Shown in pieces: positions 6,180 through 32,854 of a DNA stretch of 64,000 nucleotides. The DNA is from Ignavibacteriota bacterium. GTDB lineage: Bacteria; Bacteroidota; Ignavibacteria; Ignavibacteriales; Melioribacteraceae. Location of the stretch: NCBI GenBank assembly GCA_002698995.1, contig PAAX01000019.1, positions 186,001-250,000 of the forward strand, read 5' to 3'. A program made the translations under genes and the position numbers. The notes under the pieces were generated by a model, which was not told the origin of the DNA, searched no databases, and saw only the letters and a list, made by a program, of their open reading frames with translations. The stretch's first letter is position 1, and each line of letters starts with the position of its first letter.

Positions 6180-7460
6180 ATGAAGATAATTATTGTTGCT
6201 TTACTAATAATGTTTACATCAATTCTAAGTTTTGATAAGGAAGTAAACAAGGTTGAAATTGTAAAAAGCGATAATGGTTTTCAGCTTCTCAGAAATGGAG
6301 AACCATTCTACATAAAAGGAGCAGGTGGAAAAGGTGATTCAAAAACTTTAGCTGAATACGGCGGTAATTCTATACGAACTTGGGGAGTAGACCAATGGCA
6401 TGAGACTTTTTATGAAGCTGAGAAATACGGATTAACTGTTTTTGCCGGATTGTGGCTTGATCAAGAAAGACAAGGTTTTGATTATAGCGACTCTGCTGCT
6501 GTTAGAAAACAATTTGAAAGTGTGAAAGATTCTATTCTTAAGTATAAAGATCATCCTTCACTTTTAATGTGGGGAGTAGGAAATGAACTTGATCTTAATT
6601 ATACAAATCCGGCTGTATGGGATGCGGTTGAACAAATAGCAAAATTTATTCATGAAGTTGATGGTAATCATCCGGTTACTACAACTACAGCATTTATAGA
6701 AAAAGAAGAAGTAGAGTTGATTAAAGCAAAATGTCCGAATATTGATCTTCTCTCAATTAATGCTTATGCAGGATTGCCGGTTATCAGAAGCTTTTTAAAA
6801 GATTTTGGTTGGGATGGTCCTTATATATTAGGAGAATGGGGAACCTTCGGTCATTGGGAAGTTCCAAAAACAAAATGGAATGAACCTATAGAATTTACAA
6901 GTACGGAAAAAGCTGAACTATATGATAAAACATATAAAGAAAATATATTAACAGATCCGAATTGTATTGGAAGTTATGTGTTTTTGTGGGGAACAAAACA
7001 GGAGAGAACATCAACATGGTACAGTATGTTTTTACCTGATGGTGAAAAAACAGAAGCCGTTGATGTAATTCATAAACTATGGAAAGGCGAATTTCCTAAA
7101 AATAGATCGCCAAAATTAGATTCATTGCAAATTGATTTCAAAAGTGCAAATAGTAGTATCACATTAGAACCTGGCAGCATTCATAAAGCAATTGTGTATA
7201 CAACAGATCCTGATAACGATGATTTAAAAATAGTTTGGGAAATTCTTGAAGAGACAAAAGACAAACGTACAGGTGGTGATGAAGAGCTAAAACCTCCTGC
7301 AGTTGATGGATTAATTGTTAAGTCGGATAATTCTTCTATTACCTTTAAGGCACCTATTAATACTGGGGCTTATCGCCTTTTCGTTTATGTATATGATCAA
7401 AAAGGAGCCGGCGCACATGCTAATTTTCCATTCTATGTGAATCATCCTAGTGAGGAATAA
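6180..7460 (+). CDS. Exported glycoside hydrolase, GH2/GH5-like TIM barrel (clan GH-A)
   Basis: 426 residues. An N-terminal hydrophobic stretch (IIIVALLIMFTSILSF) is a signal peptide. Residues ~28-310 form a clan GH-A barrel: NGEPFYIKGAGG and GGNSIRTWG at the start, the acid/base Glu136 in WGVGNELD and the nucleophile Glu219 in YILGEWG. This layout is seen in GH2 catalytic domains without the sandwich domains and in GH5 enzymes, so a beta-glycosidase or beta-mannosidase is likely but the sugar is not determined. Residues ~315-422 look like an Ig/PKD-type beta domain. Unlike its neighbours it has no T9SS tail, so a periplasmic location is expected. ATG 6180 follows AAGGAGAAG. It faces the next gene across a hairpin. 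Confidence 0.8.
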   Translation: MKIIIVALLIMFTSILSFDKEVNKVEIVKSDNGFQLLRNGEPFYIKGAGGKGDSKTLAEYGGNSIRTWGVDQWHETFYEAEKYGLTVFAGLWLDQERQGFDYSDSAAVRKQFESVKDSILKYKDHPSLLMWGVGNELDLNYTNPAVWDAVEQIAKFIHEVDGNHPVTTTTAFIEKEEVELIKAKCPNIDLLSINAYAGLPVIRSFLKDFGWDGPYILGEWGTFGHWEVPKTKWNEPIEFTSTEKAELYDKTYKENILTDPNCIGSYVFLWGTKQERTSTWYSMFLPDGEKTEAVDVIHKLWKGEFPKNRSPKLDSLQIDFKSANSSITLEPGSIHKAIVYTTDPDNDDLKIVWEILEETKDKRTGGDEELKPPAVDGLIVKSDNSSITFKAPINTGAYRLFVYVYDQKGAGAHANFPFYVNHPSEE

Positions 7461-7586: not shown

Positions 7587-9125
7587 TTATTTTATAAACA
7601 TCATTTTACGAACTGAATTAAATTCTCCAACTTGAATTCTGTATATGTAAAGTCCGCTTGCAAGATTAATTGCATTAAAACTTACTTTATAATGCCCTGC
7701 TGATTTTTGTTCGTTTACTAATGTTACAACTTCATTTCCAAGTACATCATAAACTTTTAAAATTACATACTCACTACTTGGTACTGAGTACTCAATACTT
7801 GTAGTAGGATTAAACGGATTAGGATAATTCTGTTGCAAAGCAAATTCAGTTGGTAAATTCGTTGCACGCAACGACTCTACAGTAATTGTTTCTGAGTATT
7901 CGAATTTACCGTCAAAATCGATCTGCTTTAATCTGTATTGCAGCTTACCATCTAAACCTCCGAGGTTTCCTAAAACCTCTGAGGTTTTATCATCTATAAA
8001 GGTATATTCTTTTGGACTGTTGCTGTTTCCACTTCCTTCAACAAATCCTACTTTTTCCCATTGTAGGGACAATTCATGAGTTGTCCCTACAAAAGAACGC
8101 TGAATTTCAAAACCGTAGTTGTTTATTTCTGTAGCAGTCTTCCAATCTATTATAATTTGATTATCATTTATATTTGCTGTGAATGAAATAAGTTCAATTG
8201 GAAGTGCACCATTTGTTGTTCTTCTTATAGTTCCATTCAAGCCTACTGTTGTGCCGTTATTGCCATCAGAAAAATATATGCCGAATAATGTATTTGAAGT
8301 TCCGCTAGCATGCAAGTCCCATGTTGCACCGCCGTTTGAAGTAGAAATAATAGTACCTCCAAAACCACATACTGCAGCATGATTAGCATTAATCATTGAA
8401 ACACTCCAGAAAGTTGAGTTAGTACTTTCGCTATCTTGTGAAGTCCAGGTTTCCCCTCCGTCAGTAGTTCTGATTATTGCATTATTCCAGCCGACCGCAG
8501 TTCCAATATTTAGATCAATAAATGATACATCTTCCAATTCATCTGTAATTCCACTTGACTTAGAAACCCAGGATGCTCCTTTGTCTGTTGTTTTTAGAAT
8601 TACTCCACCATCTCCAACTGCAACAGCAGTATTTTCATCTAAAAATGAAATACCATTTAAGTGATTTATAGTAGTACTGTTTTGAATTGTCCATGTAGTA
8701 CCACCATTAGTTGTATTTACTATTCGTCCATTGAAACCAACAGCAATTCCATTATCAGCATTCCCAAAATCGATGTCGTATAAGTGGCGTGTTGTATTAC
8801 TTGTTTGAGCAGTCCATGAATTTCCACCATTGGTAGTATTCAAAATAGTTCCATCACTTCCGGCAACATATATTATGTCATTGTTAATAAATGAAGTTCC
8901 TGATAAACTGGTAGCTGTATTACTAGTTTGTTGCAGCCAGTTGGTACCACCATCGGATGTATGCAGAATAATTCCCCCGCTTCCAACTATTACCCCGATG
9001 TTATTATCAAAGAATTTAACATCATCCAGCGAATTCGTCGTGCCGCTAGTTTGCCCGCTCCATGTTTGTGCTTTTATATCTATAAAAAAAGTAAATACTA
9101 ATAAAACAATAAAAAGTCTTTCCAT
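7587..9125 (-). CDS. Secreted YCF48-like propeller protein with T9SS tail and three translated palindromes
   Basis: 512 residues. Signal peptide (MERLFIVLLVFTFFIDIKAQ), then about seven blades each with a (H/N/R)TTDGG-type loop (HTSDGGTNW, NTTNGGNSW, KTTDKGASW, RTTDGGETW and others), a YCF48/Hcf136-like propeller. From ~residue 310 comes a linker of the common Bacteroidota form (PIELISFTANINDNQIIIDW ... YRLKQIDFDGKFEYSE), then a T9SS sorting domain (YPNPFNPTTSIEYSVPSSEY ... RKMMFIK). Three short palindromic repeats lie inside the linker and are translated in frame (see the repeat entries), which makes the linker longer than usual. The protein is expected at the cell surface; no enzymatic motif is seen. 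Confidence 0.85.
   Translation of the reverse strand: MERLFIVLLVFTFFIDIKAQTWSGQTSGTTNSLDDVKFFDNNIGVIVGSGGIILHTSDGGTNWLQQTSNTATSLSGTSFINNDIIYVAGSDGTILNTTNGGNSWTAQTSNTTRHLYDIDFGNADNGIAVGFNGRIVNTTNGGTTWTIQNSTTINHLNGISFLDENTAVAVGDGGVILKTTDKGASWVSKSSGITDELEDVSFIDLNIGTAVGWNNAIIRTTDGGETWTSQDSESTNSTFWSVSMINANHAAVCGFGGTIISTSNGGATWDLHASGTSNTLFGIYFSDGNNGTTVGLNGTIRRTTNGALPIELISFTANINDNQIIIDWKTATEINNYGFEIQRSFVGTTHELSLQWEKVGFVEGSGNSNSPKEYTFIDDKTSEVLGNLGGLDGKLQYRLKQIDFDGKFEYSETITVESLRATNLPTEFALQQNYPNPFNPTTSIEYSVPSSEYVILKVYDVLGNEVVTLVNEQKSAGHYKVSFNAINLASGLYIYRIQVGEFNSVRKMMFIK
7852..7881. repeat. Palindromic repeat (TGTAGAGACGTTGC type) inside CDS
   Basis: The core CGTTGC-AC-GCAACG is a perfect palindrome. 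On the minus strand the 30 bases match 24 of 30 positions of the ideal palindrome with arms TGTAGAGACGTTGCA. It encodes about ESLRATN just before the T9SS domain, where related proteins go straight from the FDG...E linker to LPTEF. Confidence 0.6.
7954..7989. repeat. AAACCTCCGAGGTTT palindromic repeat inside CDS
   Basis: Two half-elements (AAACCTCCGAGGTTT and AAAACCTCTGAGGTTTT), each palindromic, are also nearly reverse complements of each other. On the minus strand they are read as about KTSEVLGNLGGLD, which looks inserted into the linker between FIDD and KLQYRLKQIDFDG. The same element is intergenic at 16313-16347 and 32362-32417. Confidence 0.75.
8061..8092. repeat. Palindromic repeat (TTGTAGGGACAA type) inside CDS
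   Basis: The 12-base arms TTGTAGGGACAA and TTGTCCCTACAA are perfect reverse complements around an 8-base centre (TTCATGAG). On minus it encodes roughly VGTTHELSLQ between QRSF and WEKVGF, where related linkers are shorter. The ends TGTAGGGAC are shared with the TGTAGAGAC elements elsewhere in the window. Confidence 0.75.
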
Positions 9126-16312: not shown

Positions 16313-16347
16313 AAACCTCCGAGGTTTTAAAAACCTCGGAGGTTTTA
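16313..16347. repeat. AAACCTCCGAGGTTTT inverted repeat between convergent genes
   Basis: AAACCTCCGAGGTTTT and AAAACCTCGGAGGTTT are perfect reverse complements, giving a long hairpin; each half is also palindromic. It sits between the porin stop (plus) and the AGE-protein stop (minus) and ends in T/A runs, so it may act as a bidirectional terminator. Just after it (16380-16412) the phrase CGTCTATACGT occurs twice. Confidence 0.8.
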
Positions 16348-27042: not shown

Positions 27043-27118
27043 TTTGCAGATAATCGATGGTATTTTTCCCCCGACTTGAAAGTCGTGGTTAATGTTACTT
27101 AAGTCAACGTTGAGGGAA

Positions 27119-27297
27119 TGTACAAATTAAATTCGGTGTCCAAACGCTGGGTGGATGAATGTACAAATTACATTCGCTGACCATGTGCTGGGTGGACAAA
27201 TGTACAAATTACATTCCTTGTCCAAACGGTGGGTGAAGGAATGTACAAATTACATTCAGTGACCAAACGCTGGGTGGACAAATGTACAAATTACATT
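27119..27297. repeat. Tandem array A, 41-bp period (four full copies plus a partial)
   Basis: The phrase TGTACAAATTA starts at 27119, 27160, 27201, 27242 and 27283, exactly 41 bp apart. Each unit holds an imperfect hairpin AATGTA-CAAAT-TACATT and a spacer close to CCAAACGCTGGGTGGA. Copies differ at several positions. The fifth copy runs into the 92-bp tail repeat. Confidence 0.92.
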
Positions 27298-27433: not shown

Positions 27434-27561
27434 AATTTAACGTCTTTACAAAAATTGTCTGCATTTTTACTCTCGACTTAAAAATCTTGGTTAATGTTAC
27501 GATGTATGAGTGAATCTTTTCAAGAGAATCATGATACAACCAATACCTCCTTGGAAATACC

Positions 27562-27807
27562 TTTAGGGAAGCATCGTCATAATGCCGATTAAAGAAAAAA
27601 CGTTTGGGGAAGATTCGTCACCATGACGATTGATGAAAAAATGTTTGGGGAAGATTCGTCACCATGACGATTGATGAAAAAATGTTTGGGGAAGATTCGT
27701 CACCATGACGATTGAAGAAAAAACATTTGGGAAAGCATCGTCACCATACCGATTGAAGAAAAAACATTTGGGGAAGCATCGTCATCATGACGATTTATGA
27801 AAAAACG
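27562..27807. repeat. Tandem array B, 41-bp period (six copies)
   Basis: Units start at 27562, 27603, 27644, 27685, 27726 and 27767, exactly 41 bp apart; the second and third are identical. Each holds a hairpin TCGTCA-CCA-TGACGA and a spacer with AAACGTTTGGGGAA. The stem differs from array A but the period is the same and the spacers look related. Confidence 0.92.
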
Positions 27808-28220: not shown

Positions 28221-29252
28221 TTATGTGTGAATTTCACAATACTGCTCTTTAAAATCTCTCTCATCAACAAAGTAAAGATTATTTCTAGCTCTTGTACAAG
28301 CAACGTAAAGTTTATTTTTTACAATAGGTTTTAAGTCTAACAATGAGTTATTTTTAAAACTATCACTTGTCCCCTTATTAAGGACTACACATACATTATT
28401 ATAGTGATCAATTCCTTTAGACTCACCCCAATTACTCGAATTTAAGTTATATACGTAATGCTTATTATAAAACAATTTTACTACTTCATTATCGCTAATA
28501 ATATTTCTAATATCGCAAGGTTCTGATAGCATATTTACTTGTGTTTCATTTTCATTGTGTGAGTGAATTTCTATACCAAGGTTATTATTTATAAAGTCGC
28601 AAACAGTTGGACTACATCGATAACTTCTCAACAAACTTTTAGTATCGATCTCAAGTCCTAGCCCTTCAAAATACGATTTATAAGTTTCGTAATCGTTGTG
28701 CAGATTAGAATTAACACTCCCATCGCGGCTAGTATCATAAGTGTGTTGGTAGAAATCTCCCACAAATAAAATATTAGTGTTTGCTTTTGCTAGGTACTTT
28801 AAGAAATTAAAATCGTGTCCAGCAAAGTCTTGTACCTCATCGATAAAAATAAAATCAAAATACTTTTCTATTCTTTTCAAAACTGCATCTATAATATTAT
28901 TAAAAACTAGAAAACGAGAAATTCGATTTGAATATAATCTTTTATATTTATCTATATATCTATCTGTATCTCTTGCATATTTATTCGGATTTGGTTTAAA
29001 ATTTATACCCTTCGTATCGTATTGAAGAAAACAAAACGGTTTGAAACAAAAAGCATATATAAAATTGAAATAAGTATAAAGACGAATACTATTAGGAATA
29101 AATCCAAACTTATCTATAATTTTCGCTTTTAAGTTGTTGTAATTATTCACGGTATAAGTAATTATTAATGCTCTTTTAGACTCATCTAAATCTGTTATAA
29201 TATTTGTTGTCTTACCAGAACCGGCAACAGCAAAAATTACTCTTTTATCCAT
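28221..29252 (-). CDS. Short UvrD-like (SF1) helicase, GajB-like
   Basis: 343 residues. Helicase motif I is AVAGSGKTT (8-16), motif II FIDEVQDF (137-143), motif III LFVGDFYQHTYD (162-173), motif IV LLRSYRC (207-213) and motif VI LYVACTRARNNLYFV (315-329). Both RecA-like cores are present but the 1B and 2B insertions of UvrD/PcrA are greatly reduced; GajB is usually near 500 residues. Its ATG lies inside the end of the OLD-family gene (16-bp overlap), so the two are translated together. In Gabija the helicase-like subunit is thought to respond to DNA ends or nucleotide depletion and activate the GajA nuclease. The gene is AT-rich with many AAT/TAT codons, fitting transfer. Confidence 0.85.
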   Translation of the reverse strand: MDKRVIFAVAGSGKTTNIITDLDESKRALIITYTVNNYNNLKAKIIDKFGFIPNSIRLYTYFNFIYAFCFKPFCFLQYDTKGINFKPNPNKYARDTDRYIDKYKRLYSNRISRFLVFNNIIDAVLKRIEKYFDFIFIDEVQDFAGHDFNFLKYLAKANTNILFVGDFYQHTYDTSRDGSVNSNLHNDYETYKSYFEGLGLEIDTKSLLRSYRCSPTVCDFINNNLGIEIHSHNENETQVNMLSEPCDIRNIISDNEVVKLFYNKHYVYNLNSSNWGESKGIDHYNNVCVVLNKGTSDSFKNNSLLDLKPIVKNKLYVACTRARNNLYFVDERDFKEQYCEIHT

Positions 29253-30796
29253 TCCAGAGCTTCTCTAATGTATGATGGTACATTTAAGTAATCACCCTTT
29301 TTCTGTAAAAGTTCAAAAGCAATTTCAGCTTTGTTTTTCAACATATAATCCAAAACAGGTAAAGTTCGCCGCCCAGCCGAAAATAGTTCGTTGCAAATAT
29401 CTGTATTATCATTGAACAAACATATTTCAAAAGTACTATCGTCGTTATTTGTTGGGGCAAATACCTTAATACTGTCTGATATAAAATCCTCATAATTATC
29501 AATACAGTTTGATTGATAGTTTCCATCGTTATCTCTAATTACAGCTGTTTTGAGACCTAATATTTGGGCAATCTCTAAATATCGCTTAAAACTAACACCC
29601 CCAACAGAAATAATGTGTATATCATTTTGTGAAATTTCTTCGTTAAAAGTATTCTTAAAAAACTGTTCAAGGAGAATATATTCAGCATCTCCTTCTACAA
29701 GTAAGACTTTTTTGGACAGAACAAAATCAAGTAAGTTGTTGTTAGGTGCTTTAATAAAAAATTTTGCGGTGCTTTCTTCCAAAGAATTTAGGAGAGTGTA
29801 TTTTTCACTACTACTATTAAGCAAGATTGCATTCCTTAAGTCGAGCCTAGAAGTAATCATATTACTATGAGTGGAAATTAGCAGTTGAGTATTTTTAGTA
29901 TTAGCTATTTTTTTAATTAGTTTGTTTACATTTATATGGCTTAAATGATTTTCAGGTTCTTCAACTAAAATTAAATCAAGGTTATCTTCACTTTTGCTCA
30001 GAGCAAAATCGGTTTTAATAAAACACTGGCGACCTTTTCCTTTGTTCTCAATATCAATATCATCATCGAACAATGTTAGATCAGTTTCTAAATTGGACTT
30101 AGAATTATTTCTGATTGCAAATTTATAATTTTGTAGTCTTGAATTTATGTTGCTTAAGCTACTATCAGAATAATCTTTTTTTGCTTTACGGTAATCATTG
30201 TAATGTTTTGGCTTCTCATTCTCAGATATTGTGTTATTATACATTCCACGTATATATTCTCGTAAAGAATATTCTGTTCCAATTTGTGAATGATCGATTG
30301 AAATATGCTTTAGAAAAGGTCTATAACCAGTATAAGATTCCCCGGCAAAGGTAAAATAATTTATTGAGTAATATTCAAAAGGGAAAATGCATTCGTCAAC
30401 TGATATTATATCATTAACTTCTTTACTCAAGTCATCATTTGGTACACATTCAAATCGCAATCCATCAAAATCTCTTTTTTCAGAATTATTTTGTCCAAAT
30501 AAATTTGGTTCATTTTGCTCATTAAAGTATAATTCAACAAATAATTTGGGAAGATTATCATATTTGCGATCGGATTGCAAGAATTGATTGATTACTTCAT
30601 AATTAAAAATACTTTCCAGATATAATGAGTCTATTTTTTTCTTTTTTCCGCTAATTGTTAAATTAATAGCTTCAAGAATAGTGGTTTTACCCGATTCATT
30701 ATCACCAATAAGTACATTTAATTCTTTATCAAGCTCAAGTTCTAGTTCTTTGAATCTTTTGTAATTATGCAATTTTAATTTTTTTATAAAACTCAT
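29237..30796 (-). CDS. OLD-family ATPase-TOPRIM nuclease, GajA-like
   Basis: 519 residues. The N-terminal ABC/RecF-like ATPase has Walker A GDNESGKTT (31-39), Walker B LDLILVEEP (273-281) and an H-loop LLISTHSN (305-312). The C-terminal TOPRIM domain has Glu368 in VLLVEGDAEYILLEQFF and Asp422/Asp424 in AVIRDNDGN, followed later by NDDSTFEICLF. This is the class 2 OLD layout, which is typically paired with a UvrD-like helicase, as here. In the Gabija anti-phage system GajA is a site-specific nicking endonuclease held off by ATP. No other defence gene is adjacent on this strand. The pair lies to the left of tRNA-Phe in repeat-rich DNA. Confidence 0.88.
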   Translation of the reverse strand: MSFIKKLKLHNYKRFKELELELDKELNVLIGDNESGKTTILEAINLTISGKKKKIDSLYLESIFNYEVINQFLQSDRKYDNLPKLFVELYFNEQNEPNLFGQNNSEKRDFDGLRFECVPNDDLSKEVNDIISVDECIFPFEYYSINYFTFAGESYTGYRPFLKHISIDHSQIGTEYSLREYIRGMYNNTISENEKPKHYNDYRKAKKDYSDSSLSNINSRLQNYKFAIRNNSKSNLETDLTLFDDDIDIENKGKGRQCFIKTDFALSKSEDNLDLILVEEPENHLSHINVNKLIKKIANTKNTQLLISTHSNMITSRLDLRNAILLNSSSEKYTLLNSLEESTAKFFIKAPNNNLLDFVLSKKVLLVEGDAEYILLEQFFKNTFNEEISQNDIHIISVGGVSFKRYLEIAQILGLKTAVIRDNDGNYQSNCIDNYEDFISDSIKVFAPTNNDDSTFEICLFNDNTDICNELFSAGRRTLPVLDYMLKNKAEIAFELLQKKGDYLNVPSYIREALEWIKE

Positions 30797-32267: not shown

Positions 32268-32442
32268 ATGATTGTAGTAATTTCCGTAGTGTAAATTAAA
32301 TTTCGATTTTAATGGAATAATTCAGAAGTAGATTAAATTTCTGGCTGCCAACTATAAAAGCAAACCTCCGAGGTTTTTTCCTGAAGGGAGTCCTTGGGAC
32401 TAAACCTCGGAGGTTTTTAAATGATAGGATAAAATTCAAATG
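32268..32442. other. Gap after the TraB-like gene
   Basis: 175 bp with no gene; its only clear content is the palindromic element at 32362-32417. An open frame on minus at 32436-32729 consists of repeats and tRNA remnant and is not accepted as a gene. Confidence 0.6.
32362..32417. repeat. AAACCTCCGAGGTTT inverted repeat with 24-base centre
   Basis: AAACCTCCGAGGTTT at one end and AAACCTCGGAGGTTT at the other, with a centre that itself can pair (TCCTGAAGGGA / TCCTTGGGA). It follows the TraB-like stop. A half copy (AAACCTCCGAGGTTT) lies at 32692-32706. Confidence 0.85.
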
Positions 32443-32443
32443 G

Positions 32444-32501
32444 GTTTAAAATAAAAAACCCCGCTTCGGTTTGCGGGGTTAAAGTTTTTTGTGGGCAGAG
32501 A
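32444..32501. repeat. 58-bp exact copy of the tRNA-Phe 3' end and terminator
   Basis: These 58 bases recur exactly at 32734-32791 (offset 290). They include the minus-strand terminator hairpin and the first bases of the acceptor arm of tRNA-Phe. Confidence 0.95.
32453..32481 (-). terminator. Duplicate copy of the tRNA-Phe terminator
   Basis: Minus strand: CCCCGC-loop-GCGGGG followed by six T, identical to the terminator at 32743. It now ends only the tRNA remnant. Confidence 0.8.
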
Positions 32502-32553
32502 TCCCGCATTTTGCGGGATAAACTCCATCAAACCGCCAACACAAGAATTTTCA
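32493..32553 (-). pseudogene. Partial tRNA-Phe copy (3' half, interrupted by a palindrome)
   Basis: Aligned with the intact tRNA at 32782-32854, it matches the acceptor and T-arm side up to the anticodon loop (ACACAAGAATTTTCA for ACACAAGGATTTTCA) and then stops matching. In the T-arm it carries a palindrome ATCCCGC-ATTTT-GCGGGAT (32501-32519). About 26 of the 32 bases after the palindrome agree. It cannot fold as a tRNA. Confidence 0.8.
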
Positions 32554-32742
32554 AAATGGTTGAAAAAAATGTTTCGGTAATACAAAATAAATTTTTGTTT
32601 GAGGGAATTACGATTCATCACTTTTAGAATTCTAGAATAACTTGGCATCGGGAAAGGTTTAGAAATAAACTGAATCACAAACTTATAAAGCAAACCTCCG
32701 AGGTTTTTAAACATGATAAAAAAAATCAAAACTGTTTAAAAT

Positions 32743-32771
32743 AAAAAACCCCGCTTCGGTTTGCGGGGTTA
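32743..32771 (-). terminator. Terminator of tRNA-Phe
   Basis: On the minus strand CCCCGC and GCGGGG form a stem around AAACCGAA, followed by six T. It lies 11 bases after the 3' end of tRNA-Phe. Confidence 0.9.
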
Positions 32772-32781
32772 AAGTTTTTTG

Positions 32782-32854
32782 TGGGCAGAGACGGAATCGA
32801 ACCGCCGACACAAGGATTTTCAGTCCTTTGCTCTACCGACTGAGCTATCTGCCC
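32782..32854 (-). tRNA. tRNA-Phe (GAA)
   Basis: Read on minus: acceptor GGGCAGA / TCTGCCC, D-arm GCTC-AGTCGGTA-GAGC, anticodon stem AAGGA / TCCTT with loop CTGAAAA (anticodon GAA), T-arm GGCGG-TTCGATT-CCGTC, discriminator A. CCA is not encoded. A terminator follows, then a partial copy 290 bp away. Confidence 0.97.

Follow-up and report, generated by a model that had tools for sequence, protein, structure and literature searches.

The window, by which we mean the whole stretch of 64,000 nucleotides analysed here, contains an intact tRNA-Phe gene and, on its 3' side and in direct orientation, a displaced fragment of the same gene that carries a palindrome in its T-arm. The features found at the locus are, from the intact gene outwards:

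32781..32854, minus strand: intact tRNA-Phe (GAA), the presumed restored, attL-like side (ARAGORN and Rfam)
32734..32780, minus strand: terminator of tRNA-Phe, within the 58-bp exact repeat (repeat comparison)
32692..32706, no strand: AAACCTCCGAGGTTT palindrome downstream of the intact tRNA-Phe's terminator, in the same relative place as 32402-32416
32554..32691, no strand: 138 bp between the repeat blocks, presumed remainder of an element
32527..32553, minus strand: displaced copy of tRNA-Phe nt 33-59 (anticodon loop to T-loop), 89% identical
32502..32526, minus strand: palindromic element GGAGTTTATCCCGCAAAATGCGGGA, standing for the tRNA's TCCG (pattern and alignment)
32491..32501, minus strand: displaced copy, 3' acceptor strand TCTCTGCCCAC (repeat comparison)
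32444..32490, minus strand: displaced copy of the tRNA-Phe terminator (part of the 58-nt exact block)
32362..32416, no strand: two AAACCTCSGAGGTTT palindromes (32362-32376 and 32402-32416) past the displaced terminator

Displaced copy of tRNA-Phe in the window

The two sides of the locus are related by a direct repeat (32402-32501 and 32692-32791, at a spacing of 290 bp), which is 88% identical over 100 nt and has a core of 58 exact nt (32444-32501 = 32734-32791), made of the terminator and the last tRNA-Phe nucleotides, that cannot be extended at either end. This repeat comparison confirmed what the initial annotation had read at the locus, namely that the 3' half of tRNA-Phe is repeated together with its terminator, 58 bp being exact. 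Weaker similarity continues beyond the terminator into the AAACCTCSGAGGTTT palindrome. In the second block, nt 33-59 of tRNA-Phe match 32527-32553 (E 3e-4), the match beginning at nt 33, with which the border of the displaced fragment falls in a tRNA loop, the anticodon loop. Similarity 5' of this loop was not found at the search sensitivity used in the window, nor was any further tRNA-Phe remnant, the remaining matches having E values of 0.2 or worse. The two tRNAs of the window were the sole Rfam matches at gathering scores.

Between the two tRNA-Phe blocks, 25 nt (32502-32526) occupy the place of the four tRNA bases TCCG; the earlier reading of a palindrome that had entered the remnant T-arm is right. 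The palindrome, ATCCCGCATTTTGCGGGAT at 32501-32519, is perfect and is the window's only match of its pattern, with none in 100 shuffles.

No integrase lies between the two copies, where only a mechanical ORF of 97 aa (32436-32729, minus strand) crosses the 138 bp. PF00589 has no match in the window; on the contig it has one, at a distance of 193 kb. To the left of the displaced copy lies a Gabija pair, GajB (28221-29252) and GajA (29237-30796), both on the minus strand, with UvrD-like and OLD-like TOPRIM domains, and the region from 28 to 31.5 kb has a low GC content (0.24-0.30 in 1-kb windows). The defence pair and the repeat arrays are indeed on the same side, as had been pointed out; both are outside the repeat pair, and nothing here links them to the presumed element. 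The arrays are two, both tandem with a 41-bp period and with differing units, at 27116-27297 and 27555-27807. Additionally, the AAACCTCSGAGGTTT palindrome occurs seven times in the window with at most one mismatch, against zero expected, as close pairs at 7954-7987, 16313-16345 and 32362-32416 and as a single copy at 32692-32706.

Integrative elements at tRNA-Phe in relatives

The surroundings of tRNA-Phe were compared in 34 relative loci for extra copies of the gene, a comparison that the initial annotation had called for. An extra tRNA-Phe-derived copy is present on the 3' side in six of them (G008, G027, G029, G012, G024 and G002), being a complete second tRNA-Phe gene in tandem in G012, degenerate in G024 and detected by pattern in G002. 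The available sequence of 27 of the 34 loci, four of which have less than 0.6 kb beyond the tRNA, has no extra copy, and the duplication is therefore not a fixed feature; the remaining locus, G020, was left unjudged at a contig end.

Four integrases of the window's own genome served to build a local profile, which was run over the 34 loci and the window; it placed an integrase just 3' of tRNA-Phe in two of the relative loci, G026 and G029, and gave no other match in this set. In G029, the order is tRNA-Phe, a truncated integrase that follows at about 160 nt, one further ORF, and a tRNA copy from nt 30, which lies 1.76 kb from tRNA-Phe and carries the palindrome family of the window; like the window's fragment, this copy has its border close to the anticodon loop. 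The 199-aa integrase ORF of G029 is Phage_int_SAM_5 in Pfam, without the catalytic domain. In G040, an integrase also adjoins tRNA-Phe, and no displaced copy was found over 198 kb downstream.

The G026 integrase has matches in 85 of the 164 genomes of the order, and among the best 30 of these 85, tRNA-Phe sequence is present at eight integrase loci: four intact, three partial (G147, G055 and G053) and one cut by a contig end (G109). A ninth blast match among the integrase loci, L307, is a tRNA-Thr. Other kinds of tRNA (Pro/Arg/His/Glu, Leu, Met, Ser and Thr) are found in 11 of the remaining integrase loci. Two of the partial copies belong to elements with the following layout:

G147, C1:1997339-1997266: intact tRNA-Phe
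G147, 1987420-1987360: displaced copy, tRNA nt 14-74, 100% identical
G147, about 1987521-1988537: integrase, beside the displaced copy
G055, C35:54-127: intact tRNA-Phe
G055, 7298-7357: displaced copy, tRNA nt 15-74, 100% identical
G055, 6206-7216: integrase

The integrases of both elements are tyrosine integrases. The G147 element has 9.8 kb between the intact tRNA-Phe and the displaced copy, with a DnaB-like helicase in its interior, and its exact block of 98 bp includes the terminator, as in the window; the G055 element has 7.2 kb, and its two terminators differ. Just past the displaced copy of G055 there is another tRNA-Phe copy with the palindrome family of the window, and this outer copy is taken to mark an earlier insertion. 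In G053, an integrase adjoins two tRNA-Phe copies in succession, whose T-loops hold another palindrome, on a contig that does not hold the intact tRNA-Phe. By eye, a different palindrome follows GGTTC in displaced or second tRNA-Phe copies (L318 in G053, L070 in G027), with no tRNA bases lost. Thus, the integrase genes and attachment-site copies that the initial annotation had suggested seeking in other strains are present in G147 and G055 and decayed in G029, and tRNA-Phe is an integration site in the order. The end of the similarity at the anticodon loop, which had been given as a mark of such an event, holds for the window (nt 33) and likewise for G029, but not for G147, G055 and G053, whose duplicated block begins at nt 14/15, within the D-loop.

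On this evidence, the window probably holds the scar of an element, since almost entirely deleted, that entered tRNA-Phe at its 3' part by means of a tRNA-targeting tyrosine integrase. This agrees with the initial annotation and is supported by G147, G055 and G029. Because the window keeps no integrase, we infer the integrative origin of its copy, complete elements of the same layout being seen in relatives. An element would have inserted into the 3' part of tRNA-Phe via its tyrosine integrase and supplied its own 3' part and terminator, so that the gene would have stayed intact while the old 3' part moved to the far end. The subsequent deletion would have taken nearly the whole element, so that just 138 bp now separate the displaced fragment from the intact tRNA. 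This fragment would have been free to decay, and GGAGTTTAYCCCG-loop-CGGGR would have come to replace the TCCG of its T-arm.

The window shares with known tRNA-targeting integrative elements and their scars the 3' tRNA fragment in direct repeat, the intact tRNA and, in relatives, the integrase family, as well as the two successive fragments at one tRNA seen in G055 and G053; it differs from them in having no integrase or cargo, in the terminator within the duplicated block and in the palindrome in the fragment. Gene fragments of tRNAs are themselves the subject of PMC9897764.

What counts against the scar is that no integrase remains between the copies and that weak similarity carries on beyond the terminator into a palindrome, as a segmental duplication would also give. 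Also against it are the finding of integrases 3' of tRNA-Phe in only two of the 34 relative loci and the case of G040, with an integrase beside the tRNA but no displaced copy detected. An unlikely alternative is a tandem duplication of tRNA-Phe and its terminator that decayed without any mobile element, losing its 5' half. Plain duplication does happen here, as the two full tandem tRNA-Phe genes of G012 indicate, and in G036, G097 and G029 intact tRNA-Arg genes have beside them partial 5' halves of the same tRNA, which are no scars of 3' integration. However, a duplication of this kind does not account well for a border that is abrupt near the anticodon loop, with nothing similar found 5' of it, when the same border occurs in G029 with an integrase fragment between the copies and elements of the same layout occupy tRNA-Phe in G147 and G055.

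The palindrome family and its TNCG footprint

The displaced copies of G008 and G029 have GGAGTTTAYC at the same T-arm position as the window, followed by hairpins that differ. The 15-mer GTTYRATGGAGTTTA is found in 11 of the 164 genomes of the order, against four of 164 for the reversed control, six of the 11 contexts being tRNA-like and five not. The 18-mer GGTTYRATGGAGTTTAYC has nine sites in eight of the 391 genomes of the class, with no control matches, and a 20-letter pattern was found in 10 contigs of the genome collection (six Neomarinimicrobiota, two Ignavibacteriae, one Bacteroidetes and one Proteobacteria-labelled MAG). A case in G329 sits, by eye, in a copy resembling tRNA-Tyr. Carriage of the tRNA-like form by phages was considered and rejected: seven viral contigs match the 18-mer, and there ARAGORN found no tRNA and the context is unlike one.

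The family GGAGTTTAYCCCG-loop-CGGGR is dispersed. Its pattern GGAGTTTAYCCCGN{3,20}CGGG occurs in 54 of the 164 genomes of the order and in 24 of 247 genomes drawn from the phylum (eight of them outside the class), with zero matches of the reversed control in both sets. The window's genome has one match and G231 has 56 matches at 48 distinct places; in many of the 25 contexts read there (L333-L361), the copy is, by eye, enclosed by one or the other of two host palindromes, with an arm on each side. The hairpin is not tied to tRNA-Phe: in addition to partial copies of this tRNA and, by eye, the inside of other palindromes, its sites include incomplete copies of tRNA-Arg, Pro, Leu, Met and Cys, each beside an intact gene for the same tRNA. 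In G069, G073 and G118 (L162, L163 and L180), it is traversed by open frames of 659, 214 and 731 codons, respectively, one of them RHS-like by eye. In G036 (L161 and L213, C1 3311924-3312308), five units at a spacing of 90 bp adjoin an intact tRNA-Arg, each consisting of a tRNA-Arg 5' half whose anticodon loop holds the palindrome. In the literature searched, with most subscription papers outside it, no description of the family, including its string GGAGTTTATCCCG, was found.

A functional RNA conserved next to tRNA-Phe, as opposed to debris, is a very improbable reading of the hairpin-bearing fragment: the arrangement GGTTCRAT-GGAGTTTAYC-hairpin-acceptor strand does recur in records of the class and of Neomarinimicrobiota with different hairpin sequences, but the palindrome is not confined to this setting, since partial copies of other tRNAs have it, as do open reading frames and other palindromes; moreover, the fragments vary in length, no 5' acceptor strand is present in those that were read, and just eight of the 391 genomes of the class have the exact 18-mer.

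The bases lost at the palindrome were examined by matching its flanks elsewhere. In a loose set of 124 instances, defined by GGAGTTTAY and a stem of at least 4 bp and including some chance matches and some mutually related cases, the flanks have a match elsewhere in 85, the commonest gap being 4 nt in 41 and TNCG in 33. The same number of random placements, which were not matched for repetitiveness, gave 88 with a flank match, six with a 4-nt gap and none with TNCG. In a strict set of 99 instances with CCCG...CGGG stems, 30 have no flank match and 69 have one, the commonest gap being clearly TNCG in 26, tied in nine and a different one in 34. The flanks of the 26 clear TNCG cases are tRNA-like except in two, which are the repeat TTTTCT|TGCG|CAAAGA, and flanks that are repeated palindromes gave mixed gaps. 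By tRNA, the replaced tetranucleotide is TCCG in Phe, TACG/TCCG in Arg, TTCG in Leu, TGCG/TACG in Pro, TTCG in Met and TTCG in Cys. A partial copy of tRNA-Arg(CCG) in G029, read by eye, has lost TCCG likewise.

It is thus well shown that the palindrome replaces TNCG at tRNA sites. At most palindrome sites the rule would be no more than a possibility, and for non-tRNA targets it was weakened by the stricter recount of 99 instances.

Likeness to REP sequences and search for a mobiliser

Among known repeats, the palindrome family looks like a variant of REP sequences with an unusual footprint. As in REP sequences, the palindrome is 20-40 nt long, with a conserved unpaired 5' tag, is dispersed, has stems and loops that vary between genomes, and is sometimes within other palindromes or coding genes. 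According to PMC3733652, PMC6006769 and PMC8266576, REP families have GTAG or CGTC tags and Y1 transposases; the insertion of REP sequences into small palindromes is on record in PMC3733652, where the GTAG-23 REP of T. roseum is sometimes inside other palindromes. The family described here differs in its tag, which is GGAGTTTA and not GT[AG]G or CGTC, in the replacement of TNCG at tRNA sites and in that no Y1 gene flanked by copies of the palindrome was found in the loci examined. 'GGAG' as the start of a word is absent from the same three papers. The palindromic elements of Rickettsia, as described in PMC3733652, are similar in being palindromic inserts, some through open reading frames (here in G069, G073 and G118); they belong to other organisms, and the likeness is one of description and not of sequence.

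Y1 genes are common in the order, being present in 146 of the 164 genomes. Around these (RAYT) genes, none of the 30 loci fetched has a GGAGTTTAYCCCG hairpin; other hairpins were found beside some of them, in a scan that located the ORF in about half of the loci. A Y1-like ORF is near palindrome copies at two places, G029 C1 and G073 C58, the latter a locus chosen because a Y1 gene was already listed there. Among 88 loci fetched regardless of Y1 (157 kb), one has a Y1 gene near a copy, against a background of one in 520 kb, numbers too small to be decisive; in G231, the three Y1 genes and the palindrome copies share no contig. A role of RAYT (Y1) as the mobiliser of the palindrome is not supported by these results.

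Most likely, the unit would move as a REP-like element, perhaps via single-stranded hairpins. Since a functional single-copy tRNA presumably cannot afford the loss of its bases, gains would survive in displaced or duplicated tRNA fragments. Here it is tentatively proposed that palindromic mini-elements of Ignavibacteria-like and related bacteria may spread by swapping TNCG for GGAGTTTAYCCCG-loop-CGGGR in tRNA copies, perhaps also in the loops of other hairpins, through a putative and possibly ssDNA-based machinery other than the usual RAYT/GTAG pair, with displaced tRNA fragments as safe harbours.

The scar itself is ordinary, a feature of a known kind. The palindrome matters more, being a repeat that is dispersed and that leaves a sharp footprint at tRNA sites: the four bases TNCG are lost and one unit is gained, as a comparison of the broken tRNA copies with the adjoining intact tRNA makes visible. 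Because this footprint is sharp, the mechanism of a REP-like repeat becomes testable.
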